A stretch of 64,000 nt of DNA from Limnoperna fortunei (lineage: Eukaryota; Mollusca; Bivalvia; Mytilida; Modiolidae), in NCBI GenBank assembly GCA_944474755.1, contig OX104114.1, positions 24,885,220 to 24,949,219 on the forward strand, in the 5' to 3' direction. The notes under the pieces were generated by a model that ran no database searches, was not told the origin of the DNA, and saw only the letters and a program-made list of their open reading frames with translations. The position numbers and the translations under genes are program-made. How positions within the stretch are numbered: position 1 is the stretch's first letter; every line of letters begins with the position of its first letter. Positions 12,730-54,406 of this stretch are shown piece by piece.

Positions 12730-15050
12730 TTTTGAATATGTAAACATTTTAATTAATTTCAAACGTTATTCTCATTGAGTGTAGACAAGCCTTTTCGTGG
12801 TCTTTTGTCCGAAAATAGGGTATTTTTAAAGGACTGAATTTCTGATCAACATAGGATATAATAGTAAAAATTTAACAATTTACTAGTATCAGGAAATTAT
12901 AAGGGTTTTTTACTTTTATACCCACTCTACTAACAATACTAAGGAAATACATACATATTCTGGTGATAAATATATAGATGGTATACGTAATTTACTCAAG
13001 TAGTACTGCACTACAGTATACTATTTCGAAAAAACAAGACAGCTTAGATGCAACTTCATCAACCAAAATTGTAGAACGTGGTTAACTCTAAATCTCTGGC
13101 GTAGATCTTTAAAAGTTGGCTTGGTATCCTTTTGCTAAAGTAAAGCACGTGACTAGAAACATAAGTTATAAAAAGAAGTACTTTTTTTGGTAGAAAGTAA
13201 TAAATTTTATCACATCTAAAGGTACGTGAATTAACTATTTTCTCTAGTATTTTTACTGGAGTGGAACACAAACTTGAAGTTCACAGGTCACCAGGATGAC
13301 AACTGGTATTCCAATATCTTTTATAGTGCAATGTGGATATCAAGGTAATCGAGAAGAAGATTAAAGCAGTAAAGTGAATGGCTTTTTGGGTCATTCGAAG
13401 ATTAGTTTGATTCTGAGACATTAACGCTTTACTCAAAACGTCTTGTGCACATTCCTAACTGAAGCAACATCCGTTGTGAACTCTTGTCCACTTGTTGATA
13501 TACATTTTGATGTAAAATTTGTATGTGTACTAGGTATCGTCTCTTCGTTATTGACAGAGAAGAGAGACGCTCGCAAAGTTTACCGTTAAAACAAGAATTC
13601 GTTCATTAAATCGGCAATCAGTTGCAGACTGGATGGAGACATGAAATTTCCAGGGTTACAAAATCTTCGCAATTCATCGATATAGTTGAAACACAAGACT
13701 TATTGAACATGTTTTTCCAGAAATCGACAACCTTGTTCATGTTTGTGGATGATATAAAAAAAGACAGACTGTCTCTCCTTGTTTGTCTAAGTAGATACAT
13801 TTAATTCTAGAAAGTTTTTGAGTAGACTTAAATGTTTGATAGACAAGTTAATGGTCAAATAGAAAAGGCACAGGTATTTCATTTTAAATGTAACTGCCGC
13901 TTTTGGGTGATATTTTTTATCAAAAGCAGGGAGCTCCGTTTACAAAGGATACTTTTTGTATTGTATTTGTATGTAAAACAGTTTTGATTATAAATTTGAC
14001 TACTGACTTTGAACTGGGCAATCATACTTCTCCTGTACTTACCTGTAGTGTTTTACATCACATACTGTTACTTTTTATTAGTACTTACAAAAATTGACAA
14101 TTGTCTATTTTTTTGTTAAACGATATATAAGGAGAATGAATAATCGTCATATTTAGTGAAATTTTCTGCAAACATTTTTCTGTAACGATTAAATTGGACG
14201 TTAAATGTCAGTGCCAGTTTTCGATTAAATTTATTTGAACATGCACTGTTCATTATTATTGATACTATCTGCTAAGTTGCTAGCGGTTGAATATTTGATA
14301 ACTACATTTATAGATACAAGAAATCAACGGTTATTATTGTAATATAAAATATCTATCCTATGGTATTTGTCTGACAACTTATAAATTATTTAGACCCAAC
14401 AAATGTGGCGATCGTCCTATCAATATCTATATGCATTGTTTTATATAGTTTCAGTGACGTGTATCGAACGTAGCAAAATCGATTCATACAAAAATGTGCG
14501 TTCGGTCATTACCTTTACAAACAAAATGAACTACAAAACGAAACATTCACTTCTCATAGTCTTCTAGGTCAAAGCTACGAAAATCTACTCAAAATATCAT
14601 TGGAATGATGCCGAATACTTTATAAAAGACTGTCATGTTACAAAAGAACCTTCTGGCTATATGTGTTGCACTAGATAGATTAATAAATTTATAAATAAAA
14701 TAAGTCGATAAACATATATCACGTTTGATCTATTTCTTGGGTAAAAGACTCACGAAATACCCATGGCAGTTAACATTTCGTACCAAGGTCATCCAAGGTA
14801 AATGTCCGCTATACCCGTATAGATATATAAAATGTGAATGGACTGGTTGTTTGCTTTAAGTTCAGTGAGTAATATTATAACTATATTAAAAACGAGAACC
14901 AGTTACTAAAGAATAAATTAATTGAAAGGAAATTGGATGGACCAGTGGCGACAGGGAAAGACAATTTTGCCTGTTGTCAGCCGTTCCGTATTGCAACTTG
15001 ACAAAACTCCTACGAGAGAGTATGTAATCTGAAAAAATGGAACGCACTAT
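12730..15050. other. AT-rich spacer, no gene recognised
   Basis: Only short open frames without motifs. A short block near 14940-15030 (CCGTATTGCAACTTGACAAA, CTACGAGAGAG) resembles part of the dispersed repeat at 30.9-31.4 kb and 55.0 kb and abuts the 39-bp satellite. Confidence 0.55.
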
Positions 15051-15052
15051 TG

Positions 15053-32575: not shown

Positions 32576-32971
32576 ATGTTTTCACCACCTCATTTAAATA
32601 TTTCAGATATATCAAATCAAGAGTTAGGTTTGAAAATATTAACAATTGTCTGCACTTTTGTATACTGGGACCATATTCGGAGGGGTCGACAGATCCCCTA
32701 AGTACGTCCCAAGCTGACGTGTTAAGACAGTTCCACTTTTATATTATTTCAGAGGTAAACACAAGAAGGCTCATTTAGCCGCTGCAAGAGGCTGTTTGCC
32801 AACTTGTTCCCGTTCTAAATATATAACTAAAATACTGCTCACTGAGCATCAATCAATCAATCTTTGTCTGCATTACTTTTGTATTCCTTTAAGTACTTTC
32901 TACTTTGTTTTATAAATTACACCACATCATTCACTGTTTTCCTAAGAGTAATCCGATATGAATGGCAGTTA

Positions 32972-33200
32972 CACAGCAAAAATAGCTACGGACGTTTAAC
33001 GGATGTGTAACTAAACATCCGTAAAACGTCCGTTTACCATATGTTTTACGTTCAAAACGGAAACATCCGTAAACCATCAGTACTGAAAACGTCCGTTTTA
33101 CATCCGTTTCATTAACGGACGTAAAGCCCAACGTCCGTAAAATGTCTGTAGATTAAACAGACGTAAATCAGACGTAAAACATCCGTAATACGGATGATGA
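32972..33200. repeat. Left terminal and subterminal repeat region
   Basis: After the 24-bp terminal repeat, at least eleven copies of ACGGATG, ACGGACG or their complements (CATCCGT, CGTCCGT), usually followed by T/A runs, crowd into about 215 bp in both orientations. Such arrays are the binding sites of the TnpA-type protein in plant CACTA elements; that role here is inferred. Confidence 0.88.
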
Positions 33201-33483
33201 TTAAAAATAAATTGGGCATTTGTATAATAGATAAAAAACACAATAAATGAACTTGAATACATCATAATTTATTAAAGGCAAGTATTCAGTCAATATAAAG
33301 ATAAGAAAACTTATCAAATTTATCTTAAATTAATGATTTTAAATTTTATATATATCACATTATATATAAATGTTCATATATTTATATAACAAGAACATTT
33401 TCTTGAATCATCAACTTCAAAAACATACATAATTGAAAAAAAAGTTTAATGGAAACAGAAAACAAAATACTATCATCCATTCA

Positions 33484-35850
33484 ATGAGTACAATGTGCCA
33501 CTTCTCTGATTCACCAAGTACTTTATGACATTACTCTGTTCATCGAGTACACTATGACATTACTATGATTCACCAAGTACACTTTGAAATTACTCTGATT
33601 CACCAAGTACACTTTGACATTACTCTGATTCACTGAGTACACTATGGCATTAACCTGTTCACCTAGTACACAATGTCATTACTTTGATTCACTAAGTACA
33701 CTTTGACATTAATCTGATTCACCTAGTATATATGACATTACTATAATTCACTGAGTACATTGACATTACTTAGATTCACCAAGTACATTATAACATTACT
33801 CTGATTCACCTAGTACACTATGACATTAATCTGTTCACCAAGTACACTATGTCATTACTTTGATTCACTAAGTACACTTTGACATTAATCTGATTCACAT
33901 AGTATATATGACATTACTATAATTCACTGAGTACAGTGACATTACTGAGATTCACCAAGTACACTTTGACATTAATCTGATTCACCTAGTACAATATGAC
34001 ATTACTATAATTCACTTAGTACAGTGACATTACTATGATTCACCAAGTATACTATGACATTAACCTGCTCACCCAATACACTATGACAGTACTCAGATTC
34101 ACCAAGTACACTTTGACTTTACTCTGATTCACCAAGTACACTATGGCATTAACCTGATTCACCAAGAACACTATGACATTACTCTACTTTACTGAGTACA
34201 TTATGACATTACTCTGATTCACCAAGTACACTATGACATTACTCTGATTCACCAAGTACACTATGACATTACTCTGATTCACCAAGTACACTATGACATC
34301 ACTCTGCTTTGCTGAGTACACTATGACATTTCTCTGATTCACCAAGTACACTATGACATTTCTCTGATTCACCAAGTACACAATGACATTACTCTGATTC
34401 ACCAAGTACACTATGACATTACTCTACTTCACTGAGTACACTATGACATTACTCTGATTCACCAAGTACACTATGACATTACTCTGATTCACAGAGTACA
34501 CTCGGACATTTCCCTGATTCACAGAGTATACTATGACATTAACCTGCTCACCCAGTACACTGACATTAATATGATTCACCTAGTACAATATGACATTACT
34601 ATAATTCACTGAGTACAGTGACATTACTCTGATTCACCAAGTACACTATGACATTACTCTGATTCACCAAGTACACTATGACATTACTCTACTGAGTACA
34701 CTATGACATTACTCTGATTCACCAAGTACACTATGACATTACTCTGATTCACCAAGTACACTATGACATTACTCTGATTCACAGAGTACACTATGACATT
34801 ACTCTACTTCACCAAGTACACTATGACATTACTCTACTTTACTGAGTACACTATGACATTACTCTACTTCACCAAGTACACTATGACATTACTCTGATTC
34901 ACAGAGTACACTATGACATTACTCTACTTCACCAAGTACACTATGACATTACTCTACTTCACCAAGTACACTATGACATTACTCTGATTCACAGAGTACA
35001 CTATGACATTAATCTGATTTACTGAGTACACTTTGACATTAATCTGATTTAACGTGTACACTATGTCATTACTCTGATTAACTGTGTACACTCACATTAC
35101 TCTGATTTACACTGTGTACACTATGACATTACTCTGATTAACTGTGTACACTCACATTACTCTGATTTACACTGTGTACACTATGTCATTACTCTGATTC
35201 ACATAGTACACTGTGACATTAATCTAATTCACCAAGTACACTATGACACTACTCTGATTCACTGTGACATTAATCTGATTCACAAAGTACACTATGACAT
35301 TACTCAGAATCACTGTGTAAATGAATTCACCGAGTACACTATGACACTACTCTGATTCACTGTGACATTAATCTGATTTAATGTATACAATATGACATTA
35401 ATCTGTTTTACTGAGTATACTGTGACATTAATCTGATTCACAAAGTACACTATGACATTACTCAGAATCACTGTGTAAATGAATTCACCAAGTACACTAT
35501 GATACTACTCTGATTCACCGATTACACTTTGACATCACTGATTCACTGTGACATTAATCTGATTTAATGTATACAATATGACATTACTCTGTTTTACTGA
35601 GTATACTGTGACATTAATCTGATTTAATGTATACAATATGACATTACTCTGTTTTACTGAGTATACTGTGACATTAATCTGATTTAATGTATACAATATG
35701 ACATTACTCTGTTTTACTGAGTATACTATGACATTAATCTGATTCACTGAGTACACTACAACATTAATCTGTCATATTAAACAACATATGACATTATTGT
35801 AAACCACTGAGCACATTATAAAATTAACTCTGATTCACTGAACATACCAT
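33484..35850. repeat. 30-bp minisatellite within the giant transposon
   Basis: About 79 tandem copies of a 30-bp unit (consensus GATTCACCAAGTACACTATG followed by ACATTACTCT). The centre (34.2-35.0 kb) is most homogeneous and the edges are diverged, with shortened units and ATAATTCACTG variants. Open frames on the minus strand (34184-34411, 35535-35756) are periodic artefacts. It lies between the left subterminal region and the transposase 3' end. Confidence 0.95.
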
Positions 35851-36023
35851 TATGTAAATTATACATCATTATCAGAAACTGAAAGGTCGTCAATTCATTA
35901 AGCACATTATTACAGTCTGATCAATTACATACCAAATGTTTAGGCCTAGGTGTAAAGACAACAAAGTAATGGCCAGGACAAGCTTTGAAAAGAAAAATTA
36001 TCTTAAAGATCAAGGTCAAATAT

Positions 36024-39000
36024 TTAAAGATAAAACTGGTTGACAATGTACTGATTAACTAACAGATTATGTTTTAAATGAGTAGACTTCTTTAAAACAT
36101 TCTCTTGCTCAACTTTATCTGATGAAATAGCCTCAACAATTCTACATTTGGCAGCAGAGCAATTATGTACTACACTAATTTTTTCTAAATTTTTAGATGG
36201 CACTATCGTGGTTGTTGCTGACTTTTCGAGGACTTGACAACCCATAACCTTTTTATTGAGAATGTTGGTCTTCCATAGCACCACAACCTCTAAGTGAGCA
36301 CCTCTCTTTGGTATAATAACAAGTCCTTCTTTAAAGACACCAATAAATTCCTGAAAAAAAGTATTCATAAATTACTAAATCATTCAAGTTAAGCCTGTAA
36401 AAAATTGATGGAAAGTGTTTCATATCATGATGGCCATGAACAAGGGATCATTTAACATTTTTGACCCCACTAAGACTTTTAAAGAGATCAAGAAGTTGAC
36501 ATCTGAAGAAAAAATAACGCTACTTTTCGCCTTTATGTGCAGTTACTCTTAAAAGTGGAATCGGACAACTTTGACTAAAAATAAACTTTTCTAGAATAGA
36601 GCTTTTGATTATGAAGATATAATAGTCTTGAGTTAACTGCCATTAAATGTGCTGTAATAAAACATAGGGATTAATCATACTGAGGAACATGTCATTTGTA
36701 GCCAGTTTGTCCCAAATTATTCTTGCGTAGTTTAAATTGGTTGAAGGCGAGAACATTTTTTTACAGACATCTTATATCATACTAAAACATTGAGGTAAAT
36801 ATCAAACAATATCCATGAAATGTTTAAAAAGAAAAGCTTAAACAAAGTTTAATACCCACCACACCAAAAACTGGAAGTTGGGTTTAAAATAATCCATAGG
36901 AACATGACTAAAACTTAAATCCACAAGGTTATAAAAACATAAAAATAAACCAAGACTTTTGTTACCTGCTTTTCAGAATCTAAATAGGAAACCCATTCTC
37001 CAGAATGTATAAGAATGCCACTCTCTGCTCTTACACCAGAGCCTCGCATTAGCTTGTATTGATCAAAGTGATGATCTTCAATGTTTAAAGTAAGAAGTGC
37101 TTGTAGAAGAAAATCATCTGTTGGATTTTCTACAACAATTTTCTTCTTCTGGTCCCTTTTAAATAATGAGATGGTTCCTGGTCTCTGTTTAGTTGAGTCT
37201 ATATGAGTGTCAGCACCAAGAAAATTGAGTACTGGTGACTGCAATCCTAACCTGATGACTGCAGAAGTTGCCTGACACCTGCAATTAGGAAGAAAAAAAT
37301 AACAAGCATTCCATAAAGTTCAAGTAAATAAAGTCTGGTATTTCTTTGAAATTCAAAAACAAATGCTAGAAAAGTAAATTAATATTGTTACATTTAAAAT
37401 AAGAGTAGCTTTCCATATGGTTGTAACAAGAACTGACTGAAATTATGGTAAAGTATTACAAAATTGATTTAGCAGACTGACGCAAAAACAAAATAGGAGG
37501 TGCACAATGACATTATCTGCTAATAATTTAATTTGCTTTGTAAGCTGAAATCTGATTGGTTAATTTAAATTGAGCATTCCATATTATAAGAAATAACTTA
37601 TGTGACCTTTGACCTATTCTTACACCGTTAAAATTCAAATAGTTCCATGATGTCATCAACGTTTTTACTATAAAAATTGTTAAAATTTATTGTTAAAATT
37701 AAATTATAAGGAATATTTCAAATTTCTGAACAGGTTATACAATATAATACAGTTTGAAGTTTATTAGGCGTAAACAGACCCAAATCATATTATAGCACTT
37801 AACCCGTTCATAATTTTGAAGTATTCCTTAAATGATTGTGGGAAGGTTTGGTTAAAATCAAATGAACAGTTGCGGATACAAAAGTGGGACTATGGATGGA
37901 TGGTTGATAAAAAAACAGGGGAGACTTTCTGTGAGCTATTCTTAACATTTGATACACCCTGCTACTAATAAGACAGCAAACTAGTATACTGCCTCTCACA
38001 TTTTTTTTAGCAGATGCCAAAACAAAACAGGATGCCTAACAGTATGTGTGCAAATGATTCAGGGAAAGTTTGGTTAAAATCAAGTGAACAATTTGGGAGG
38101 AGTTATGGATACAAAGTGTCAACCCACCTTTTTTTAGTAAATCTCAATTATGGTTCAGTGTAACAATTTGTTTAAGTGGACTGGTGCAAAAACAAGAGGG
38201 GGCCTGTATCGCACACCTGAAATCAAATAACATGTTAAACATTTGTCCCATACATACATAGATGTATCTGTAATGAAATTGGTTGCAAACAATCTTCAAA
38301 CAAAAAAGTCAAAACAGCATACCAATTATTGTCTTGTTCAAAATATCCACCACTGATAACATGCATACAAAGATATTGCTTGGCAAATTTTATGCATGTG
38401 TCCCTACTTCTGGCTTTCTGGTTTTGAAGAAATATCATGTTCCTGATAGCTCCATGATTTTTTTCAAAAGCATCTTCAGCAAATGCTTTAGGTGGGCCAT
38501 GCCTTTGAATATCCTCAACCTGTAGAATAAAACATTAGTACAACTAATAACGATAATTTTAAAAATGTTTACCTTAAATTTATCAGCTTTAAGGTTAAAA
38601 GTTAAAATTTAGGAAAAACATACGGACTTATAAGGTCAAGTAAAATTGAATACTGTTTCTTAGCACTGCTGCCATGAAAATCTTGCAGATGAAGACAGTT
38701 TATTTCAAGTCCAGTAAACTAACTTACCCTCCTGAAAATAAAAGACTGAAATTTGTGATTTGTTTCAATGAAACTCTTGGTAAAAAATAGATACAAAGGA
38801 CACTAAACTACTGGGCCAAATTTTACTGCCTTTATAATCCTATGTTAGTTTTGTGATTTGTAAGATTAATGACAAAATTTAAATTTTATTCTCGAAATGT
38901 AGCAAATATAAAATTCTAACTTCGATCTATTTATACAAAATTAAAACAAAATATACATCTCTCGGTTTGTCCGAATACCATTGTACCTTGCGACGCAGAC

Positions 39001-42000
39001 AAACATTTGTACACAACATTAGACCCCATTACAAACAAAAATGGCTGACTTCCTATGGAAAATCGATTTATCAATATGAAACTTTAGCCTCATTTAAAAT
39101 GGCGTTTAACTGTGGAAAATAATTGTTGATTTCAAAAACTGTGTAATATGAGATCTACAAAAGGACCATAAACCCGACCAAACGTGGTAAGCAGTATTCC
39201 ATTTTGTCGGGCAAAACCCGTCTGACTGACAGGATAAAGTTTACTATAAGTATGAACTTACTATATGCAGCAGAAGATGTGTTTTGGCTTTTTTTCTTAG
39301 CTCAGGTGCATATTCGTAGACTAATTGGTGGTAATCACGGATCAATTCTCTTATATCTTCAATATTCTGGTCTGTATATGCTGATCTATTTAGAAGCTTC
39401 TGAATCTTTAAGAATAAAAACATTAAATTAAACTGAAAAAAATTAATATGTATTTAAAATAATTTATAAATAAATAAACACAAGTCTAATTATCTCCCCT
39501 GAAAGATATCCAAATTAAATTTAATTCCCTCATGCAAATTTACATGCGATGTCCATCCTTAGTGAGATGTTATCACTTAGATTTAACAATCTAAAATCAA
39601 TCCTTTGTAAAGTTCTTGTCCATAAAATCTACAGCTTTATAACTTACAGATGCAAGACATGCAACCATTTTTACAAGGGGTCTTGGAACATCAGCAAACA
39701 GCATGTTGAATGTGGCTACCTGCAACTGAAAACAAAAATCTAGATTCAAATAAAAATCTTTATGAGCTTGAAGAATTTAAATAAGGTTACAACACAACTG
39801 TAATTACTAGGGATGGCCAAGGTTAACCGTTAACAGATTAATCATCAGAAGGAAGGAATATCAAATAGCAAAAATGCTAACAGGTTAATCATGAGTTTTC
39901 GGAAAGATTTAGTTTTTCGTTGTTTGTGTTTTCAGCCCAACTTTTACATATCAAAGTACATGTGTCTAGGCTCCTTTGGCCAAGACAAAGTACAGTGTTT
40001 ACAATTATTTCAATTAAGATATTACTAACAACATCTAATTGGAAAACAATGTGCATGTAAATCATTTTTAGACCAGCATCAAGGAAGCTATTACTGGACA
40101 GAAATCCCATCTGCTAGTCTGAGTGTTCTAGGATTTTAACTTTCCTTGAAAGTTTTTTGCCTAAAAATCACTTTTCCACAATATAAGTGAGATATACAAG
40201 TTTCTTCTATTCCACTTTCCCTTGGTCAAACTTCACTTACCATCGCCGATGTGAGATGGCAATGGTCATGCAGTCAGAAAGGGCAAACTGACACTTTTTT
40301 TCAGGATGCCTGGCAACATAACAATATTTTTTTTAACTTACATAGTCTTTGAAATCTTTTCCTTGCCTGCTATCAATGTATTTGAAGAAATTTTGAAAAC
40401 GACTCTCTGGGCAAACATATTGAAGATGAATATCCATTTTTCTCACTAAGCTCTCATTGCAATGGTTAACTATGAACTTAACTAAGTGTTTCGCTAGTCC
40501 CAGTGGTATCAGATGTAACATACCAACTGGTATATCTCTATAAATATAACAAAAACATAAACTTGTTTTAACCTATGAGGGATAATTGTTGATATTTCTA
40601 AAATGATATATTCCTCCACCAAAGGTCCTTTATATTAAATTTTCTTTAAGCAATTATTTAAAAATAAACAAAAATTTTTTTTAACTTTTTAATTTTTACT
40701 AGGAAGCTTTCATCAAGGTATGAACATTGTCGTTTCACTTATATTATGAGTATTAAATCTTATATTTAATATATGAGATTCAATATCAGAGTAAGTTAGT
40801 GCAGGCTTAAATGAATTTGTGAGTTTTATCAGTTAACTGACTGTCTTGTGAGCATTCAACTGTCCTCCTTCAAATTCTAAAATTACAGACAGGGTATGTT
40901 GACTGTTACCTAAAGTAACAAATTGACATTAGGAATGAATACTTGTCCACTTAATTATCAGATATTATTTTTGGACAAATGATACTTGCTTATGTGGATC
41001 CAATATATCCCAAATGACATTTCTGTGCTCCTTCACTCCTTTTTTCTTACGCAACTTCTTTTTATCTTTTTCACTAGATCTTAAGTTGATTCTCTGAATT
41101 TGAAGTTGGGTCTCCCTTGGTGTCCTGTTTTGAGCAATAGTCATAAAATGATCACTATCGGCCTGAAAACAAAAACATGAAATTTTTTCTTTTGTTCACA
41201 TATTTTCAAATGGAAAAATAAATTAAAGTTTTTAAACTTTATTCTTTGATGTCGAAGACCTTGTTTTTTTCCAATTTCAGCTAACTGACCAAAAGGGTCA
41301 TGTGAACTATTATAATCAGTTGATTTGGCATCTGTTGTACTTTAATTTTTCTTTAAAAAATTTCTTCTCAGAAACCTCGGAAAGGATTGTATTAAAATTT
41401 TGCACACATCATCTTTGATATGTCCTCTACCAAGTTTTGAGAAATCTGGTACTTATGGATGAAAGAATATAGGTGATTTAGTTGAACAATTAAACTTTTC
41501 TGTTCTTCATAGTATGGTTTATTTGAGGAATATTTCAAATTTTGGAACATGTTAAAGAGTATAACATGTTACAAGATTTGAAATATTATAATTCAATTTT
41601 GAAGCCAATATTTTAATAAATAGAGTAAGAAACACTGAATATTTGATGGAACTTTTGAATTGTAATGGCGTATAAATACGTCATGTGACCAATGTTGGTT
41701 ATACAGTACAGTAGTCCCCCTCTTATACCTTCGCCAGCTACCACCCGCTTTATCCGGCCAAAACCCTGATGCATTAAGTGTTTCTAACATGAATTTCCCT
41801 CTTGCGAACGACCACCCCTCAAACGCGACCAGCGACCACGTTTTTTTTTGACACAACAACGTTAATTCCCAACTTGTATAACCTGGGTTTTTTACTTTTA
41901 ATCAGCTAAACAGACTACCTCTAAAATTCAGATTAAAAAAGAAACCTGTGAACTACTGTTCACTAAGTAAACCCTTGCTATTCACATCAATGAATTGACT

Positions 42001-45000
42001 AAGTTGGTAAGGTAAACAGGAAGTAGAAGTGATTATTAGTTGCTAAGAAAACTGTAAAAAAGTCATGTTGCTGATGTACAGACGGACAGGGAGGGGTAAA
42101 CCAGAATACCTCCTCTTCTTCAAGCGGGGTATAATTTATACAACACATATCTAGCATTTTTGGCAGAACAATTATACCTACATAGCATTTTGGACAGTAT
42201 TTTGTCGACGCTGCTCCTAAGTGGTTGCAACAGTATGACAGCATTGCATAATCTGCTACAATAATGTCAACACACGATTTCACAACACATCTTGCCTTAC
42301 TCATTGCATCAAAACTTTCAATTCCATCACTACAAAAGGAAATAAAAGAAATAAGTACATGTGCAAAGCAAAGGACAAATATCCTCCTAAATAAATTTTA
42401 ACTTCAATCCTTATCCTTTGAAACTCTAAAATACCAAATTTCTTGGAAATCGATATACTATGACAAGAAGTTGCAGCCATTTTGAAAATAGCTTCTCGTG
42501 TAACTGCAGACATAAAATACGGATCCTAAAATTCACTTGACAAACTAAGTTTGTAACATTCTGCCAAAAGTGATGACTATTTGATACAAATATCTTCTCT
42601 GATTATTATTCTTATACATGTAATAATATATTTACGGTTGCATTTTCTTGATATCTTCATTTACAATAGCTGCTATATCCATTATATCTGCTTTCTCGGT
42701 AGCACCAACAAACTGAACACTGCCCTGTTTTTGCATTTCTGATAAAGGAAGACCTAAAACATACATCAATTAAATAAATTATCTGTTCTAAATAGAAATA
42801 ATGGAGTGAGCTCACAAAAGAATACCCTATGTTTTAACTTATGAGGGTTTATATATGGTGTGTTAATAATTGAAACATGTTATGCACAGCTTTTCTGACC
42901 AACCTGATTACTGTTCAGTGTTCTGCGTGTTAAGAACCTTTAGTATAATCAAACACTTCCTTTATCTCAAATTATTTTTTTAATTTTCATAAATGTTGTT
43001 TTAAGGCAAATATAGAGTGGAAACATGTTTCTGAAAACAGAGCATCAAATTGATTTGGCAATAAGCTCCTTCCAACATGTTTTGTTTTGTGTATACCGGT
43101 AATCTCCATTTTGTTTACATTTTACAGATTGATACTATTGTCAAGTCTTCTACATAATAAACATCTTTGCATCTCTTCCACTTAAAACTTGAAAAAAATA
43201 ACAGCTATATATGAAATTGTGTTGGGAAATTCAACCTGAACTAAAGTTATTGCAGTGAAACCAAAGTGTCTACAAAAGAGAACAACTGCAATGACGACAA
43301 CAACAACATCCTAATACCAGCATACAATCCCAAACTCTGGCACAATAAGTTAGGGCAATATCAATCCAACTTAAAATTTTACATAGTGGAATTTTTCCAC
43401 TTGTACATTTTTTATGCATACCAGATAACTGCATCTGTACACAGTGTAATGCCATCCATTTTTTGCTCTTCAATGCTGAGGTGTCATCTAAAAAAAGCTT
43501 GATTGGCAATGTGACAACTGGAAGCTGGTTGTTGCGACATGTACTTTCAAACTCTAATTCAGCCCACCTTCTTCCATTTGCTGGATGTTCTAGTGTTGCA
43601 CATGCATCCTTCGGGCTCCTAAGTAAATGAAATATATAATGTTCATATAGAATCAGCAGTAGCAATCTTGATACACCAGTCATCATTAAAAGTCTCTAAA
43701 TAGATTACATAAATATAATTTTACGTGTTTTTGATTGGTCTAAAACCAACTTTCAGGTCATGATGAATCGTAACAGTACTAAAATTACACAAAATCAGGC
43801 TTTTAAACTGGTCAAAACCAGGTCAGTATTGGATTTCACTTGACTACTGTGCAGCGGAATTCAATATTGACCTGGAATTTACCAATTGAGTCTGTTTTTC
43901 ATAACTGTTCCAACATAATTAAAAATTTCAATCTTAGTAGTCATTAAATCAGATAAGAATAAAATAATTGACTTTTTATACTCTTGTTAATATTTAAAAT
44001 GCGATGAAACTTTTCAGGATTATCAGCCAATCAATACATGTATCAAAATGCAGTATTAACAGAAAATATTATGGGTAATCAGCATTACAACAATTACAAA
44101 ATGTAAGCACTCTGTTGTTCTGATGAAGGAAGATGGTGATTATATTCATTATTATTTAGTCTTTTAATGGCAACAACAACAGGCCCATAACAAAATACAA
44201 CAGCATTTTTTGCAGTAGTAAAAAAATGAGATTTATCAACAGTTAGAACTAATTTAACATAAACATACAAACAAAAAACCACAAATTTACCTCAAAAGCT
44301 TTTTTGATACATTTGGATTTGCAATTGAAAGCTTTAAGATCTCTGATGGCTTCATTATCCAGACAGGTATATTATCATCTGAATTACCCTTAAAAATGTA
44401 ATTTGTTAAAACTTCTTAACTTCTATCTGTAACAGCATATTGTAATTTTTATACATTGTAAGCTGAAAGGTAATTGAAATCTTCATGGGCAATGAAAAAA
44501 GTATTATGAAAGCATGTGAATATTTGAAACCCACTATTTCATTTGAATTGCATTTACATGCACCCAGCCTGTAAGATTGCTAATGTGATCTCCATATGCA
44601 TATGGTTTGTTGTTTTGTTTCTCCCCTATCGCATGTATTGATTTTTTACCAATTATATGATACTGTTCAAAATTTAAAAAAGGTAAATACAACAAGGACA
44701 TTGCCGAGCGGTGCATCTCCATCCGGCAACAAGTTGACAGGATGTAATTTACTGACCTTGACCATAGATGTAAGACATTGAAATTTAATATGCTTAGAGA
44801 CCTTTTCACTAAGTACATAACAAGTTTAGTGAAAATTCTTCAAACGATGTTGACTCTATATTCACAAGAAAATGTTACAAACCCTGGTGTTACAATATTC
44901 CCTTGCAACTTCATTGGCAAGGTTATAATAATTTATAATTGAGCTACATGTACATGTATGAAATTGCTTACAATGTACTTAATTTTGCCATTTAAATGGT

Positions 45001-46905
45001 GGTAAGTTCTATATGGAATAGCTGATTTACATGTGGTGACCTTTTATTGCACAAATAATACAGGGATTAAGCCATAAACATGATAAAGTCATAAATTGCA
45101 TTGAAGTCTACACTCGTTAATTGGCTTGGAGCTATAGATATTTAGCATATAAGTTTTCAAGACAACAATATTGCATAGATTTGTATAATTGTTTTAAAGT
45201 ACAATGTACTCAGATTAATTTTTTTATGATTGCTATTAAGTTGCAATAGCTGAAGAAAATGTCAAGTGAAGAAATAGTCCAGGAAAATTTTAGATAATGG
45301 AAAATTACTCATGTGAGTGACAAGCACTAGCTACATCACTGCTTAAAATTAAGATGGTTTGTTTGTTTGAATGGTGTTTTAAAGCCACTATCAGCAATTT
45401 TTCAGCTATATTGTGGCATCCAGTTTTACTAGTAATTTGGGGAGGAAGCCGGAGTACCCAGAGAGAACCCAGGACCTGCTGTAGGAAAACTGGCAATCCT
45501 TGTCAATTAAGATTGGAGTTTAAATTAAGATGAGAACCTTATATACAATTCATATAGTGTATGTACCTTAGTTATTAAATTTTCCCAGCTATAGCTTCCA
45601 AACTTCTTCTCTTTCAGTTTTTTTAATGATGGCAAATCATGAACTCCTAGTTCTTTTAACATGTAGAGAACAAATGATACTACCCCATCACTCTGAAAAA
45701 AAGGAATTGAAGAAAATTATTGACATGCAACTTAAATACATAAATAATGACTTCAAATTACTGAAAAATGTTTTTCATTGTAATTTAGAAGAGTATTTCA
45801 AAGTAGTTTTCTCTGGCATATTATTTTAAGTTGAAGATGCTTTTCCTCTAATGACTAAGGTAAAATTCTTGTCAGAGATTTCTTTCAGAGTAGATTTGGT
45901 GGGAAATGTCTCACTATGTTTTCTCACTTGTGGTGAAAACTATTTTTCCCATACCAGCCGAGTGGTGGTTACATTAGGCAAGAATTAAAGAACTTATAAT
46001 TACAAGTAATATACATGTACAAGTATGTATATTGTATACAATATAGGGTACCTACATAAACTGTATACTAGGTGTGTAACGATACAATGTACACTTCTTC
46101 TGCAAATGTCCGATATCTGGTACAGATGAGCTCACGTGCAAACATCTGTACTTGCTTTGTCATCCAATCAAAACACCATAAACAATAACATTGTTATCGT
46201 AGCATAACAATGTTCTAGTTTGGCATTATTGTTTCCAGTGTTCTGATTGGATGTCAAGAGACAATGGAGTCTAAAACAATGCAGAGTCTTGAGGATATAC
46301 ATGTAACAATGTGAAAGTTTTACCCAAGACCACAATGTCTTAGAATAAAATTCAAAGATAAAACGTCAGGTGGAGTGCTCCGAAGATGGAGGAATTTACG
46401 TGAGAACAGGGGCAAGTAATGGACCTTGTTAATATATAAATGATCTCGTCTTGTGCCTGTGGATTCTAGTATATCATATTTATGTGTAAATCCTTACCAG
46501 TAGAAAAAAAATGCTTACCACTGGGTGCGTTGATGAATTCATGAAAATGTACAGAAGCATCTCTGCCTTGGACGTAAATGGATGCCATTCACACGAATCA
46601 GTCCCATAATTGTCTTCTGATGAATTGTTCACGTCTTCCTCACTCTCGTCGCTGCTTGTGTTGTTGCTGCCATCGTTGTAGTCGTGACCCGTAGAGAAAT
46701 TTTGTTGATAGTAATCCTGCCACTGCCGGCACTGCAGGTCGTCTAACTTGGCACCCTCGCCACATTCCTCTTGTACATTCAATGGAGTCTCTTCGCTTTT
46801 TAGAAAAACAATAGTCTTGTGCTGTTTTGATACAAGATGCCGATCAAGATTCCTTTGTCGGTCAGTAACAAAATCACACGGATCGCATTTAAATCTTGCA
46901 GACAT
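36024..46905 (-). CDS. Plavaka/KDZ-like (CACTA-related) transposase, 13 exons, intact
   Basis: RNase H-fold transposase, 833 residues. Exons (minus): 46905-46519, 45692-45567, 44388-44291, 43618-43422, 42753-42636, 42329-42182, 41162-40990, 40537-40342, 39725-39648, 39405-39262, 38519-38323, 37278-36966, 36350-36024. All phases join and the sum is 2,502 bases. An N-terminal C2H2 finger spans residues 7-29 (FKCDPCDF, HLVSKQHK), then a Ser/Asp/Glu-rich linker. Catalytic-domain landmarks are LFLDDTS..SKKW (D248/D249), VADYAML (D335) with CNHLGAASTKYCPKC (342-357), DPHKDIPVGMLHLIPLGLAK (about 413-432), KTHLLLHI (548-555) and FEKNHGAIRN (E574), a likely D-D-E triad. The C-terminus has HNCSAAKC. 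The start is the first in-frame ATG (46905). Intron 7 uses a GC donor. The gene is divergent from the accessory gene, 164 bp away. The family call is from remembered motifs. Confidence 0.85.
41706..41870. repeat. Possible pogo/Tigger-like MITE fragment
   Basis: CAGTAGTCCCCCTCTTATAC with following TTTATCCGGCC and GCGACCACG blocks resembles pogo/Tigger-type terminal sequence. It lies in intron 6 of the transposase gene. A second dispersed-repeat tail (GACGGACAGGGAGGGGTAAA) follows at 42080-42135. No matching opposite terminus was found. Confidence 0.35.
45358..45525 (-). repeat. SINE fragment with Nin-like central domain
   Basis: Read on the minus strand, it carries GGTTCTCTCTGGGTACTCCG, GGCTTCCTCC and ends AAAGCCACTATC-type sequence, the same blocks as the fuller SINE at 55835-56096. 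The tRNA-like head is missing. It is inserted in intron 2 of the transposase gene. Confidence 0.65.
46085..46260. repeat. Head-to-head inverted repeat, family of 10.4 kb
   Basis: Left arm 46159-46197 (GTCATCCAATCAAAACACC...) and right arm 46204-46255 (...TTCTGATTGGATGTC) are inverted around a 6-base centre (46198-46203) with a perfect inner stem (AACATTGTTAT/ATAACAATGTT). The right arm has a 9-12-base insertion. The left half extends to 46085 and matches 10440-10600 in reverse. It lies in intron 1 of the transposase gene. Confidence 0.75.
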
Positions 46906-47069
46906 TTTACGCAGACATTCTTCGTGATGTGTACGCTCGGGTTTTTCGGACACGTAGGTAGTGCTATACAATAAAGAGAGTGTTTCGAAAGAATTGGAAT
47001 GACGTCACTACAGACGACATTTGACAGAACTGTTGTCCAGTGTTGAAAATTGTCAATCAGATAAAAGAA
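46906..47069. promoter_or_regulatory. Bidirectional promoter of the giant transposon, with CRE
   Basis: Only 164 bases separate the two divergent start codons. A perfect palindromic CRE/ATF site TGACGTCA lies at 47000-47007, near the middle. No clear TATA box faces either gene (ACAATAAAGAG at 46969-46979 is weak). The sharing of one element by both genes is inferred from position. Confidence 0.6.
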
Positions 47070-50000
47070 ATGGATGCATTTGATGTAAGAATATTGGTAG
47101 AAGGAATCGTTTAAAAGTGTTTAAGCTAACAATTTATTGTGCAAGCTCTGCATTTGATTTTGAATAGGTCATATCTCAAATTAACAAAAGATATTATTAT
47201 AGAAAAATATGTGTGATTAGGTACCAACCAAAACGTTTGGGGTAGGGGGATGGGCTGATTTTAGGCTATGCATTTTTTCTTCCTTTCAGAAATTTTTATT
47301 TTATTTTTAGTCAACGATAAAAAAATATATTTCTTCCAAAATTTTAAATAGATTCATAAATTATGGTAGTGGAACTAGAGGTAGATCATTTTTTCTTTTC
47401 TTTTCTCAAAATTCAGGATCCAAAAATTTTTTAGGCAAAAAAAAACATAGCCCCCCCCCATAAAGTTAAATTGTCTGTCCCTTACATATATATTTTTTAA
47501 AGTGTCCTAAGCTACATACCTTAAACCAGGGATAGTCTATACTATAAATTGTCCCTGCTTAAACTTAAAAAAAAAAAATGAATTCAATGAGACTTTACTG
47601 TTGAGAGCTAAATTGAGGTATGATAAAGCTAGACGAGACTTGTGTTTATTTCTTTAATTCAATTTGCAGGAATCCCAAAATACTCAGTCCCAGGATTTGT
47701 TTGAACCAGTCTTGGTTAATTCAAACAACACACTGCCAGAGGAAAGACCACTAACCCTATCTGATATAAGTTAGTATTGCTGCAATAACTGGAAATAAAA
47801 CTGTGTGTATATTGTTTAGATAGTTAGTTAGGTGAAAGGAAATCATGAGGATACCCACTGCAAAATTTCCAATAGAACGTAAGCCATTACACAGTTAAAC
47901 GCTCATACCAGCAGGGCTTTATATATGTGTGCACACACAAAAAAATTATAAAAGAACAAACATCAAATGTAATGGTAGCCTTTTTATGTCTTATTTCCTT
48001 TGTCATATTAGAATCAATATTATTCATATTACACTGTGGTTTTAAGTGCATTTAATAATAACATACATTTTTATTTATTTTACACATTGCCATAATTTAG
48101 GGAAAATATTCAACAAGAGGCCCCAGCGGGCAGGTATCACTCGCCTGAAATTTTTGTCAAACACTGCTACAAGAAGTCAAATGACAATTTCAAACCCACA
48201 AGACTTTTGTAATTTAAAATTCTGATAGCCAGTGTTATCCCCATGGTGCTATTTTCTTGTACAGTAGGATGTATGAAGGCCATGTTGGAATAACTTTAAG
48301 AAAATTGGTTCCATCTATATTTCTATGGTGCTATGTGAAAATTTTGGGAAGAACACTTGCAACTAGATATCAAGTAGGCTGTAGGGGACAATGGAATGCT
48401 CCTGTGCAAAAACAATTCTTACTGTGAATTTATAATTTGTTATATTTTTAGTGCACAAATTAAACAGCATGGACAAAAAAATTGAAACCATGCAGGCAGA
48501 AATTAAACAGCTGAAGGACCAACAGCACAGCAATGTGTTTCATATTGACACTTGTTCATTTAAGGTAACTTTTAAACAATACAGGTTTTATGTATAAATT
48601 ATCTCATAAAGTTAAAAATTCCATTGAATGTAGAATTGATTTAAGTCTAATGTATAATTAGTGAAGTCTGAAGACGTTTAGAAAAAAATTTCAGTCATAT
48701 TGTATGGTTGTTGAATATTCAGGTAATTTAAATCAAATGTGTCACCCAAATTGTAGAACCTAATATTGCTAACATTATTATAATGGTATTGCACATGTGC
48801 CATAGCATGCAAAAACAATAAACTATCGAGTGCATTTCTATTTACAGAAGAGGCTGAACACAAGCCTAAAATTGAGGTTTAGCCGAAAACTTTGGCTGGA
48901 ACCATCAGTAGATGTTGAATTCAAGGTAAATGTTTAAGTACTATATTCTACATGTTTTAAGTACTTTTACAATGTATAAGGGTTCAGGATTTAATATTTG
49001 GGTTTTTTCTTATATCTTTATTATGCTTGCTTTAATGTTCAGCTAATTGTTTTACATGTACATGTAAACTCCACTTGGACATTTTGGTTTAAGTTACCAG
49101 ATGACCTCTTATAAAAGTTATTGCACGTTAAGGTTATAAGTTGCATGTTTTTTTTTCATTTTGCCTTAGTCTTAGAAAATGAAAACCAACAAAGATAGGA
49201 GAAAGCATATGTTCAGCTAGGTATCATTAAGTTTGTCTATGAAGTCAGGTGAGCTATGCAGGCTCCTGGGAGCCTCTTGTTTTAATCAATCAAAAAGAGT
49301 CATACTTTAAAAACCAAAAAATTGGTATTTGTTGAAAAATACATGCTTTAGTTTGTCAATATATATTTTACCAGTTTCATTAAATCAATGACAGCATGTT
49401 TTAGTTGGTGTACAAAGTGTGGACGATGGACGGACAGTGGTATACCATAATACATCCCATTGTAAATGATGGGGCATTACCTTATATGTATTGTATTTTT
49501 TTCCTTTATGTTTAGGAAGAAGTGAACATCTTCATCAAGCAAGAGGGCTTTGCAAAGGACCCATCTGTTTACAAACAGGTGTTGTCCTTTGCAAGCTCAA
49601 AGTTTTCTGACTTCAGAAATCAATTGAGGAGAAAAGTATGTATGATTTTACTTGTATAAAAAAGAAAGGATAAGCCTTGCATCATGTTGTTGGTAATAGG
49701 CGAATTGTGCAAAGTATCAGCCATTGAATTCCAAAGCCTATTTTAATTTTTTTTTAAATGAGGACATATAGCTGTTACTTGGAATGAACAAAGCTAATAA
49801 CATACTATTGCTTCTGAATTCAGCATATCGGTCATAAGATCATGAATCTTTTTATACTGATATATCATGGAAAGTTGGTCTTTTTCCAGACAACGTAGGT
49901 TACTGTGACTCACATTTTGCTTCTATTTATCATGTTTATATGTTCCACTATGTTAGGAACTATATCTGTATAAATTCAAACTGTAGATTTATTGCCTGTT

Positions 50001-53000
50001 TAATTAATTTCCGAGTCAACAAACCTGCACTGTCTTTTATTAAACATATTTTAAAAACAATAAAATAATTGATATTTATTGTGTGCAGTGAAAGATTTTA
50101 ATGCAAACTGAACTGAACTTTTATATGGGGCATTGAGGTAGAAGCCTGCACTATTCATGTGACCAAAATATTAAAAAGTTACAAATGAAAGGCTTCCTCA
50201 TCTCATGATGTGAAATGTACAAGTTGATTTTATTTGCCAATGCAAAATTGAATTATTTATATTTTACAAGATATCTATATTAATTTCTTAAGAATTGTCT
50301 TAAAAGTGTAGAATTGACTGACCATAGAATTTTTAATAACATGTCAAAATAGACTTGCTAGCCTAAATATAAATTGACATTTTTTCCAAAAAAGAACTGT
50401 TTGATATGCTTGTATACAGAAATAAATAATTTTACCTATTTTCACATTTTTCTGTGTTCTGTAGATATTTAAAGAACTGAAAGAGGGAAAGAGGGATCTA
50501 CAGAGTCTCTCCATCGAGGAGTTTACTACTCTATTGATGGAGAATTTTGTGAAAGATTCGGGGGAATTGAGTGCCAATGATGCACAAAGAGTCCATCTTT
50601 GTCTCTTACTTGTAAGTTATTGTCTAATTTTTACTGATAAACATGTATGGTAAAAACAAAAAAATCATTGTTGAAAGACCATTCAGAAAGTAGACCAAAC
50701 AAAGACATTTAAATTAAGATGGTCTTGTCATGGTTCAGAAGTTTCAGAGAAACTGCCTTGAAACTTATTGAATAAAATTATTCAAACTTAGTTATTTGAA
50801 GGCAGAATGTGAAGTTATTCAAAACATGCATTTAATGTCAAGTTGAAAGAATTGGAAAGTGCGGCTGTCCTACAAAATTCTGAAAAATTGCATGTTAAAA
50901 GACCTTACTTAATTATGTTGAAAAAAATAAAGAAAAATTGGGGTAGCAGGGCTTGTTTTCATCTTAAAGTACTCTAAAATAGGTGATATTTGGCACAGTT
51001 TAAACTGTGTGTGATAGTGAAAAAAAAAAGAATTTGAAAAACTGATTTTTCTACAAAAGCTTTTTTATCTAAAAAAAAATTGACCATTTTTTTTTGCAAA
51101 TTCTTACATTGTCATCCTGATAACTTATATAAAGCATGATGTCATAGTGAAGTTTAACTTCAACGAAATGAATTCTTTAAACTTGACCAATAATATAAGT
51201 TTTATTTGCTTACAGTATGCAAATAGTTTATTATCAACTACAAACTAGAAATACCAATAGCACTCCCACAAAGGATACCCATTAATAATCAGATAATCTC
51301 CCCTGAATGATATTTGACGGTCATTACTTGAATAAAATGTATTGGTGTCAAAATCATTCAGGGGAGATTATCTTATTGATCTGAATTTCCTTTTGTGTTG
51401 GTACCGGAGTAAATTAACCTCTGTGAGAAACTGTCATCATCAAAGCTAACTATCCAGGTAAATGACAAAACATTTTCAATTCACAAAATAGCAATACAAT
51501 TTGGGTACTCATGTAATGTTAGGTAAATGTTTTTGTTACTGTTAAATTTAAATTTTACGTCGGAGCTTGAAATACAATATGGTTAATTTCGTAACTATAT
51601 TCCCTCCCAACTGTTGTAAGGATTTATGGGTATGTTTAGAATAATCTTCACATTTCCTCATTTTGATGTTGATTTTTTTACATATTTTCACAGAATTTGA
51701 AAGAATTATTGTTCTTATACTATAATTTAAAGCCAATTGTCATTTTTTAATACATTGTACCCAAATTCTAAAAATTATTATTTAAATATGACTTCTAAGG
51801 ATGAATCATTTGCTTTGATAAGCCATGGATTTTTCTTGATTTTAGACCAGATTCAGTACTTAGTAAGCCAAGTTTTTCAATGCAATTTGTTTCATGAATG
51901 ATACATAATAATTTCTCTTACAAATCTCTATGGGGAAAACATTTCACACATTTAAGATTTAAAATTTATTTTATTTTGCAGAGATCATTCTTATACAAAG
52001 GCAAGTTGCTGTTCCCAACGTCTTCATGCCCAGCAGATTTTTGGGAACAGTTTAAAGTGTTTTATGAACAAAGTGTTGACAAAATTAAACAGGGGGCAGA
52101 AAAATGGCAAACCCTACTTGAACTTGACAAGAAAAGGGTGCAGAAAAGAAGAGAGGTTTTAGGTATGTACTGTTTTTGTTCAAAAGAAAAATGCAAATTT
52201 CTTTTAACGTAAGCAAGAAATTCACTGGCACCTGAATCCCAAATTAACACAATTAAGTCAAAAACTGAAATGGATCTGAAATTTATTTCATCTTCTGAAA
52301 ATTTATCTGCCTAGATACTCTATTCAAAAGTCTAAAAATACAATTCAAAACAATACATCCTTCCTACTAACATTTTGCATAAAACTGTTTTCAATAAAAC
52401 ATATCAATACAAAGATTTCACAAACATGTAGAAATACACATTTTATGTTTTTCACTAATTGTACCTCTTGTACACTTGTAGTTGTCAACAAAATACAATA
52501 GTTAAAAGATATATAATGAATAGTCTTAAGTTGGGTTATATTTACAAAAAATGAAATGATCAGTGTTTATAGTCAGCTTAAGGTTAATCTGAAATAACTC
52601 CTATTAGGAGTCATGCAAATTTTAGCAAAGTTCTGCAGTTGATTTCTAAAAAATATGTAAGTGTGAAATTGATCATAAGTAACGAATTCATAATGTCAAT
52701 TTGATTGTTTTTCACACACTTACCATTAATTTTACAATTATTTTTTTCCCATTGCTGTTTATGTATGTTGATCATTATAAATGTAATGACATCCAGAGTT
52801 CTCTTGAACTGTAGAATACACTTTTAAAAAAAAGCAGATTCTTCTTAATTGTTCATTTCCTTGACAAATAAATTGTTAATTTCAAATTATCTTCACGTAA
52901 TTTTCACATGAAATGAGCTTCACCTGAGTTTAAAGTGAATTTTATGTGAACTTCACACCAAATTCATGTGAAATGAACATCATGAATATGAAATTTTTAA

Positions 53001-53585
53001 CAAGGGAGGTAATTTTGACTAAAAATACTATTTTTAGCACATTTTGATCAGTCTTTTCCCAATGAACAAAAATTTAACTCAGAGACCCCTATTTTGCATT
53101 CATTCACTAAATTGTATACCAACTGCATGACGTTACATAACAAATTCAGAAAATTTCATTGCACAGAATTTGTGTAATATTATCTCTGTACATGTATAAT
53201 CTATTAGACAATTTAAAATTTCAGAGATCAACCCCGAGAAAAAAGCTCAACCCCTATTTGTTATTTTGAATTATGATTACTTGTATAAAAAAAAACTAAC
53301 TTTATGGTGAATTTAAAGAAAATTCATTGACAAATTATAGTGAAAGTGTCCTGCATCCCATAAACATGATTTTCATCGGATTGATTGTTTTGCACCAAGT
53401 TCATGTGAAGCCCAACACATAAATCAGCTGCTCATTTTGGGTGAAAATCATGTTTAATTCAAGTGAAGATAATTTTGATTATACAGTGTAGGCTAGTTAA
53501 ATTAGATGTATTGGTTCATAACATAAAAAAAAATTTTGTATGATACTATAGTTTTTGTTTGTTTTTTTCAGGGACAGAGAACTGA
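47070..53585 (+). CDS. Accessory protein of the giant transposon, 8 exons, intact
   Basis: A 255-residue protein of unrecognised family. Exons: 47070-47084, 47670-47769, 48452-48564, 48848-48925, 49516-49635, 50465-50611, 51982-52162, 53572-53585 (stop). The total is 768 bases; every intron is GT-AG and every phase joins. An acidic/polar N-terminus is followed by a predicted coiled coil (about residues 37-62: HKLNSMDKKIETMQAEIKQL). Next is a basic segment (SFKKRLNTSLKLRFSRKLW), a helical middle with FASSKFSDFRNQLRRKIFKE, and a basic C-terminal tail (ELDKKRVQKRREVLG). Position, divergent orientation and basic, oligomerising character suggest a TnpA-like partner binding the subterminal repeats. 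That role is inference; no known DNA-binding fold is recognised. ATTAAA at 53673 may be the polyadenylation signal. Confidence 0.8.
48112..49281. repeat. Oppositely oriented AACAAGAGGC repeat copies
   Basis: AACAAGAGGCCCCAGCGGGC at about 48112 and its inverted relative GCTCCTGGGAGCCTCTTGTT at about 49262-49281 bracket exons 3 and 4 of the accessory gene. A related tail is at 38190-38220 (CAAGAGGGGGCCTGTATCGC). They look like independent insertions of a dispersed bivalve repeat, not ends of one element. Confidence 0.45.
51292..51372. repeat. Perfect 20-bp inverted repeat, MITE-like
   Basis: GATAATCTCCCCTGAATGAT (51292-51311) is exactly mirrored at 51353-51372 across 41 bases. Weaker symmetry extends to about 51270 and 51400. 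A similar terminus (AATTATCTCCCCTGAAAGAT) occurs at 39487-39506. It is probably a tiny MITE in intron 6 of the accessory gene. Confidence 0.75.
52882..53478. mobile_element. MITE-like element with inverted ends
   Basis: The left end TTCAAATTATCTTCACGTAA with TTTTCACATGAAATGAGC is mirrored at about 53435-53478 (GCTCATTTTGGGTGAAAATC, AAGTGAAGATAATTTTGA). It is non-coding, about 600 bp, and lies in intron 7 of the accessory gene. No clear target duplication was identified. Confidence 0.55.
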
Positions 53586-53879
53586 AGGACAGTGTGGAAG
53601 GACCGTGTGCAATCCATGAACATTCATTCTCTTTTTTTGGACATTTACTTTTGTATTCTTTTATATAGTTACATTAAATAATTGTAACTGTCACTTTTCT
53701 TATTTCATTTTTCTTACTTAGAGCTTCATAATGCATTTTTGGTCTGAAAATAATGGTCTGAAGGTTCACTATATGATTATATTTTTTAAGACAAGTTAAA
53801 AGATATGGAGGAATGTTTATAACATATTTCCCTTTCATAATAACAATATATAAAAACAGAAGAGGAGTTTATTAATGGT

Positions 53880-54123
53880 AAGCCCTTTACATCTGTAAAA
53901 CGGCTGGATAATACATCCGTAAAACGGCCGCATTGCACATTACAATTACCATCCGTTAAACGTACGTAATACGGACAGTTACGGAAAGATTACGTACGTT
54001 TTACGGATGTACCTGCCATCCGTAAAACATCCGTGGTGCTAAACATCCGTAAAACGGATGTAAAAAACGGACGTTTTACATAAGGAAAACGGATGATTTA
54101 CGTCCGTAGCAATTTTTGCTGTG
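53880..54123. repeat. Right terminal and subterminal repeat region
   Basis: About twelve ACGGATG/CATCCGT/ACGTCCGT motifs in both orientations, ending in the terminal repeat at 54123. It mirrors the composition of 32972-33200, but the motif order is not a simple inverted copy. Confidence 0.88.
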
Positions 54124-54406
54124 TACCGTAATTAAACCTGACAAACCGCCTTATTCCGGCATCCCTATCGCCTGCCATCAGCTTTCAGAACCGTTCCATC
54201 CATTTTTCTGGAGTAAACACGGTCTCAATTTATTTGCATACTTAAAAATTGTTAAATGATAATCAGTCATGTTTTAAATAAAAATTAAAACTTATTTCTA
54301 TTACTCAAATTAAGACTATATTCTTGCATTACTAGGGGTGTAGCATCAGTAATATTATGAATAACGTTATTTTCAAAATTCTCTTATATACATGTTTTCT
54401 CTACAG

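Follow-up and report, generated by a model that had tools for sequence, protein, structure and literature searches.

A complete-looking two-gene CACTA-like transposon with a CpG-depleted body in Limnoperna fortunei

RESULTS

A bounded element with matching ends and subterminal motif clusters

In a 64,000-nucleotide stretch of the bivalve Limnoperna fortunei (assembly GCA_944474755.1, contig OX104114.1, positions 24,885,220 to 24,949,219; hereafter the window, numbered from its first letter), we analyzed an element that an earlier look at the letters alone, here called the sequence-only reading, had described as a complete-looking two-gene CACTA/Plavaka-like transposon. We confirmed the observation of a bounded element with two open genes. 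The ends, subterminal motif clusters, open genes, and CpG borders all supported a complete-looking, two-gene, CACTA-like transposon, and we consider it likely (probability about 0.78) that this is a cut-and-paste DNA transposon of the CACTA/EnSpm-Plavaka group (CMCT clade), structurally complete and of autonomous type, working by the mechanism proposed in the Discussion. Its borders are as follows.

32972 to 54123: whole element, 21,152 bp
32970 to 32971: left TA, putative target-site duplication
32972 to 32995, + strand: left terminal inverted repeat, begins CACAGC
32972 to 33221: left subterminal cluster, 10 exact ACRTCCGT/ACGGAYGT sites, CpG observed/expected (o/e) 2.28
53874 to 54123: right subterminal cluster, 7 exact ACRTCCGT/ACGGAYGT sites, CpG o/e 1.98
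54100 to 54123, - strand: right terminal inverted repeat
54124 to 54125: right TA, putative target-site duplication

The left end reads TA-CACAGCAAAAATAGCTACGGACGT and the right end, on the other strand, TA-CACAGCAAAAATTGCTACGGACGT. The 24-bp terminal inverted repeats (TIRs) proposed earlier were borne out, with identity at 23/24 positions (25/26 counting the adjoining TA). When the 26-bp pattern of TIR plus TA was searched with W at the mismatch and up to 3 mismatches allowed, it was found at two places in the window, both of them element ends, and 100 shuffles gave none. At both junctions TA lies outside CA..TG, and the flanks have TA in common and nothing further; a 3-bp target-site duplication was ruled out by the flanks TTA (left) and TAC (right). 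The TA duplications that had been claimed stood in part: TA is present at both junctions, but a putative duplication of TA and TIRs that themselves start with TA fit the sequence equally and could not be separated. Joining the flanks with a single TA gives gaatggcagt-TA-ccgtaattaaacc as the predicted pre-insertion site. The termini CACAGC..GCTGTG have both the 5'-CA..TG-3' form of CMCT elements and the CAC..GTG form of CACTA/EnSpm elements, and the TA on either side, if a duplication, would agree with the 2- to 5-bp target-site duplication of the CMCT definition.

Subterminal clusters at both ends, also noted earlier, were clear from the counts. Exact ACRTCCGT/ACGGAYGT sites numbered 18 in the 64 kb, 17 of which fell in the two 250-bp ends and one at 13467. 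With up to one mismatch allowed, 25/48 matches were in the 500 bp of the ends, where motif density was 138 times that elsewhere. At both ends the first site lies within the TIR, at position 17 counted from the terminus, and the remaining sites lie in both orientations at positions that differ between the ends. Repeated subterminal motifs at both ends, a defining feature of CACTA/EnSpm elements, were thereby found here; in the plant CACTA elements described in PMC2613891 and PMC4219821, such motifs are repeated, in both orientations, and asymmetric between the ends.

Gene 1 encodes a putative CMCT-clade transposase

Between the ends we modeled two genes, with a tandem array downstream of the first.

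36024 to 46905, - strand: gene 1, putative transposase, 833 codons, 13 exons, hand-curated model
Gene 1 exons 1 to 7, 5' to 3', - strand: 46905-46519, 45692-45567, 44388-44291, 43618-43422, 42753-42636, 42329-42182, 41162-40990
Gene 1 exons 8 to 13, - strand: 40537-40342, 39725-39648, 39405-39262, 38519-38323, 37278-36966, 36350-36024
47070 to 53585, + strand: gene 2, 255 codons, 8 exons, no known family, hand model
Gene 2 exons, + strand: 47070-47084, 47670-47769, 48452-48564, 48848-48925, 49516-49635, 50465-50611, 51982-52162, 53572-53585
33504 to 35841: tandem array inside the element, unit about 30 bp, 61 copies in 33504-35313

The sequence-only reading held that both multi-exon genes had every frame and splice junction intact. 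In our models this appears to be right as to frames, with no internal stops in either gene, and nearly right as to splicing, the signals being canonical except for one GC-AG intron: the 12 introns of gene 1 comprise 11 GT-AG and one GC-AG (the intron after 40990), and all 7 introns of gene 2 are GT-AG. The gene 1 model was settled by hand using frames, splice signals, and automatic runs, the gene finder having returned 5 exons in its first run and, with looser splice limits, most of the exons plus spurious micro-exons. An open 102-codon frame at 41596-41901 (- strand) was rejected as a gene 1 exon, as the reading frame continues without it and it had no Pfam match up to E 10. This frame is overlapped by a CpG-richer patch within a gene 1 intron (41669-41860), which may be a younger nested insertion.

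Against Pfam, the 833-amino-acid (aa) protein matched a C2H2 finger (E 8.2e-6, 25.7 bits; cut-off 27) and, as its best transposase match, Plavaka (E 6.6e-5, 22.7 bits; cut-off 26.3). The transposase core (449 aa, exon 3 to exon 11) matched Plavaka with E 1.8e-5 (24.6 bits, same cut-off) and gave a weak match to tnp2 (Transposase_21; E 0.0051; 16.5 bits against a cut-off of 28.6) that covered positions 3-193 of the 213 in the profile; tnp2 was not listed for the whole protein in Pfam up to E 1. The residues D248/D249, D335, C354-x2-C357, H550-x3-H554, and E570/E574, assigned by eye without alignment to relatives, follow in this order, which places C(2)C and H(3-4)H between the second D and the last E as in the CMCT definition. 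A search of the Protein Data Bank (PDB) by sequence up to E 1 returned just two antibody chains (E 0.5 and 0.66). From these features, the 833-aa protein reads as a CACTA/Plavaka-type (CMCT-clade) transposase with a C2H2 finger.

Gene 2 encodes a 255-aa protein of no known family

The second gene runs head-to-head with the first, and its short last exon is the least certain part of the model. On a simple matrix, no acceptor other than that at 53572 scores above 5 in the stretch from exon 7 to the right cluster, and 87 bases past the stop there is an A[A/T]TAAA signal. As a control, a gene finder given the codon preferences of gene 1 only was run on 46950-53900. Its best model had 9 exons and scored 100.5, compared to 90.6 for the hand model; exons 1 to 4 and 6 were identical and the starts of exons 5, 7, and 8 were the same, the differences being confined to the ends of exons 5 and 7 and the 3' end. 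The opposite strand scored 15.5, 40 shuffles scored at most 34.8, and 10 flank runs (5 places, both strands) scored 14.5 to 59.1, the highest of these coming from the strand that carries the reverse-transcriptase-like and Mab-21-like frames described below. We therefore take gene 2, on its coding signal, to be a probable real coding gene with a doubtful 3' end. An imperfect palindrome resembling a small hairpin insertion lies within a gene 2 intron (51287-51377).

Pfam gave no convincing family for the 255-aa protein. Its best match, Slx4 (E 0.0012, below the cut-off, no individual stretch passing by itself), and seven still weaker matches were judged to be chance, as was the best NCBIfam match (E 0.0071, 15.6 bits; cut-off 281), and the PDB search by sequence returned nothing up to E 1. 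In a collection of viral contigs, which is poorly suited to such elements and says little, no relatives of protein 1 (1 pattern stretch, unconfirmed) or protein 2 (19 pattern stretches, 0 confirmed) and no TIR pattern were found.

CpG depletion stops at the inner edges of the motif clusters

The body of the element is marked by CpG loss, a feature that the sequence-only reading had not described.

33201 to 53900: CpG-depleted segment from a blind scan, 158 CpG observed, 515.2 expected
46519 to 47069: CpG-retaining island comprising gene 1 exon 1 and the 164 bp that separate the two start codons, putative promoter of both genes

A scan for the most depleted segment, run blind to any information on the element, returned 33201-53900 with a log-likelihood ratio (LLR) of 120.7; outside it, 1235 CpG were observed and 1289.0 expected. 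When 500-bp blocks were shuffled 200 times and the results scanned on a coarser grid, the LLR was at most 29.4. The limits of the segment are the inner edges of the two motif clusters. The flanks had CpG o/e values of 0.91 (left, tandem and hairpin arrays removed) and 0.95 (right), compared to 0.34 in the body with the ends and the 30-bp array excluded; for 33222-53873 the value was 0.30 including the array and 0.27 without the promoter island. TpG and CpA were raised in the body (1.32 and 1.27, compared to 1.11 to 1.13). Depletion was uneven along gene 1, with a CpG o/e of 0.91 in exon 1 and 0.21 in exons 2 to 13 pooled, and the island as a whole reached 1.03. Between the two gene starts, at 47000, stands one of two copies in the window of TGACGTCA, presumably a CRE-like site.

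Repeats shared between gene 1 introns and the flanks (45349-45519 with 55826-55990, and 46095-46192 with 10573-10462) are about 78% identical. In a comparison of dispersed repeats with inner and outer copies, the inner copies of two pairs had 1 and 2 CpG, compared to 7 and 6 in the outer copies, and at the inner counterparts of those 13 outer CpGs, 3 were still CpG, 6 were TG or CA, and 4 were other. A third pair, overlapping the first, had 1 CpG inside and 3 outside (the 2 lost being GG), and a fourth had 0 in both copies. We read the CpG loss in the body as a probable trace of long-term germline methylation from which the promoter was spared. The near-matching TIRs hint weakly, over 24 bp, that the last insertion may be younger than much of the CpG depletion.

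Surroundings of the element

Two open frames on the + strand (54365-54601 and 55212-55493) begin about 240 bp past the right end. The first gives the impression of a signal peptide and the start of a secreted protein and had no Pfam match; the element may have inserted upstream of a host gene. Elsewhere in the window, a tandem array at 15048-20582 (39-bp unit, 142 copies, 94% matches) keeps frames open, e.g., for 1030 codons at 15002-18094 (+ strand), and a very CpG-rich long hairpin at 26585-27240 has near-identical arms (67/68 and 61/65) with tandem repeats between them. Tc1/mariner-like pieces lie at 11442-12099 (- strand) and 61861-62824 (+ strand), with DDE_3 matches at 11442-11804 (E 5e-11) and 62357-62824 (E 2.2e-6, just under the cut-off). 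Two further frames on the - strand had matches below the cut-off: a reverse-transcriptase-like frame at 487-1715 (RVT_1, E 0.011 at 779-1291) and a Mab-21-like frame at 5645-7097 (Mab-21_C, E 0.00092 at 5645-6346). Rfam at gathering scores and ARAGORN found nothing in the whole window.

DISCUSSION

Proposed mechanism and its alternatives

As the ends and the class suggest, the 833-aa transposase would cut at the CA..TG ends and insert at TA. The predicted role of the ACRTCCGT clusters is that of binding sites through which the ends are brought together; the C2H2 finger of the transposase, the 255-aa protein, or both would read them. The two divergent genes would be transcribed from one common promoter. 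The body would have been methylated in the germline over a long time with the promoter spared, losing CpG by deamination, and the CpGs of the ends would have been kept either by protection or by selection on the motif. By analogy with plant CACTA elements, the 255-aa protein is a candidate for the part played there by TnpA/TNP1; PMC2613891 describes plant elements of comparable size in which a second protein binds the subterminal repeats. A more specific version, in which protein 2 would be an element-encoded end-binding, anti-silencing factor (a TnpA- or VANC-like role, with no known relative) that shields the CpG-containing clusters from methylation, allowing the element to persist as an expressed gene pair that is methylated yet still able to move, seems to us distinctly unlikely.

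Several observations weigh against the interpretation as a CACTA-like transposon with this mechanism. Among the long-range inverted repeats of the window, with tandem arrays masked, the TIR pair ranked 10th by score, tied with the 9th, so that the TIR by itself is not unique and proves little; the case for the element is carried by the coincidence of the TIR with the other features. The Pfam matches of protein 1 were all under the curated cut-offs, and protein 2 has no convincing family, its DNA binding being conjecture. In addition, 33/41 of the end CpGs fall in motif sites (up to one mismatch), and motif constraint therefore explains them equally well as protection. Motif sites were also rejected as the cause of CpG retention in the promoter region, where none was present at 46400-47300 with up to one mismatch.

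That gene 2 is a passenger, i.e., a captured or neighboring host gene with no part in transposition, is unlikely on balance. Protein 2 has no similarity to a known transposon protein in Pfam, PDB, or NCBIfam, and the second protein of plant elements is described as the product of one spliced unit rather than of a divergent gene (PMC1636069, PMC2613891). Gene 2 nevertheless lies together with the transposase gene in the CpG-depleted body, the start region is common to the two, and the last exon and poly(A)-type signal of gene 2 stop just short of the right cluster. A different history, which we regard as highly unlikely, is that an old insertion was domesticated, with both genes now serving the host under ordinary invertebrate gene-body methylation and the ends left as relics. 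In molluscs such as oyster, methylation is described as mosaic and as falling on the bodies of expressed genes and on some young genic transposons (PMC11292947), and the open state of both genes, together with CpG-poor exons 2 to 13 (0.21) next to a promoter region that is not (1.03), resembles expressed, body-methylated invertebrate genes in that account. Domestication would leave nothing to maintain the ends, yet TIRs matching at 23/24 and 17 exact end motif sites persist, and the depletion extends beyond the gene ends to the inner cluster edges; with 24 bp of TIR only, the argument from age against domestication is weak.

The abrupt CpG step at the borders could also be the relic of a CpG-poor foreign donor genome, brought in by horizontal transfer, rather than of methylation in this lineage. 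We consider this very improbable, as the intron repeats also present outside the element in the window point to residence in this genome or a close one, their inner copies are the CpG-poorer ones (1 compared to 7 and 2 compared to 6; two families, small numbers), and the promoter region and the ends would have needed exemption in the donor too. A complete-looking CACTA-like transposon with a body that was probably methylated remains the preferred interpretation, and the features worth follow-up are the divergent second gene and the CpG footprint. The latter can be read from the letters themselves, marks the borders independently of repeats, and makes a testable claim on how such an element coexists with DNA methylation of the host. 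PMC11292947 names transposon targeting in invertebrates with mosaic methylation as an open question. With defined ends, clusters, an open transposase gene, and a second gene, a complete-looking element such as this would permit a direct test of a plant-style two-protein system in an animal CACTA element.

Comparison with known systems

As set out by Kojima in 2025 (PMC12730594), the CMCT clade covers the CACTA/EnSpm side and now includes Plavaka, moved there from KDZ (Kyakuja-Dileera-Zisupton); the clade is defined by C(2)C and H(3-4)H between the second D and the last E, CA..TG termini, and 2- to 5-bp duplications. The earlier description as KDZ-like is accordingly out of date, and membership in KDZ, for which that source gives target-site duplications of 7 to 8 bp (Kyakuja 7, Dileera 8), was rejected because the borders have only TA in common. 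"Plavaka" held as the best Pfam transposase match of both the whole protein and its core, but not as a family name: the scores of 22.7 and 24.6 bits are below the cut-off of 26.3, tnp2 also matches weakly, and CACAGC..GCTGTG fits neither of the Plavaka end types given there, TGT..ACA (A) and CATCA..TGATG (B). We therefore file the element provisionally as CMCT, with CACTA-like ends and a transposase that appears Plavaka-related without being Plavaka. The kind is not new to such animals, since EnSpm copies have been counted in bivalve genomes, e.g., 2,744 in Mercenaria (PMC8905726). Among the literature matches listed (titles and abstract starts on CACTA/EnSpm, Plavaka, KDZ, and bivalve methylation), none described this element, and a Repbase family entry for it quite possibly exists.

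The plant CACTA/EnSpm elements (En/Spm, Tam1, and soybean Tgmt* of 20.5 kb and TgmR* of 13 kb; PMC2613891, PMC4219821, PMC1636069), as described there, share with this element the CAC..GTG ends, repeated subterminal motifs that lie in both orientations, a size that reaches about 20 kb, and a transposase accompanied by a second protein; the plant transposase is of the tnp2 type, to which the match here is weak (E 0.0051). In plants the second protein acts at the ends, binding of TnpA to the En/Spm subterminal repeats being reported (PMC1636069, PMC2613891), whereas protein 2 is only a candidate for that role; in soybean TgmR*, the subterminal repeats are described as less methylated in the mutable line (PMC2613891, PMC4219821, PMC1636069). 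The element differs from Tgmt* and TgmR* in having TA rather than 3-bp duplications, and from En/Spm and Tgmt* in having two head-to-head genes rather than two proteins from one alternatively spliced unit (PMC1636069, PMC2613891).

Fungal Plavaka elements (PMC12730594) provide the nearest Pfam transposase model and have the same CMCT motifs, and differ, as noted above, in their ends. ESTA, the EnSpm-like elements with TA duplications from rust fungi, resemble the element in clade and in TA at the borders, the features on which the likeness is drawn; the ESTA families reported in the same source encode a TET/JBP dioxygenase, which was not among the Pfam matches of the proteins here. SmTRC1 and the other animal TRC elements (PMC1636069) are CACTA-related and have 2-bp duplications. 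Tandem repeats likewise occur near one end of SmTRC1, which yields a smaller second protein, there produced by splicing. Unlike the element described here, TRC elements have TIRs that start with CCC, and SmTRC1 consists of a single transcription unit within about 4.7 kb. Finally, Arabidopsis VANDAL elements and their VANC proteins offer an analogy for protein 2, in that an element-encoded protein described in PMC10398659 acts at repeated noncoding motifs and removes silencing marks; these are elements of Arabidopsis, and protein 2 is likened to VANC by its candidate role alone.

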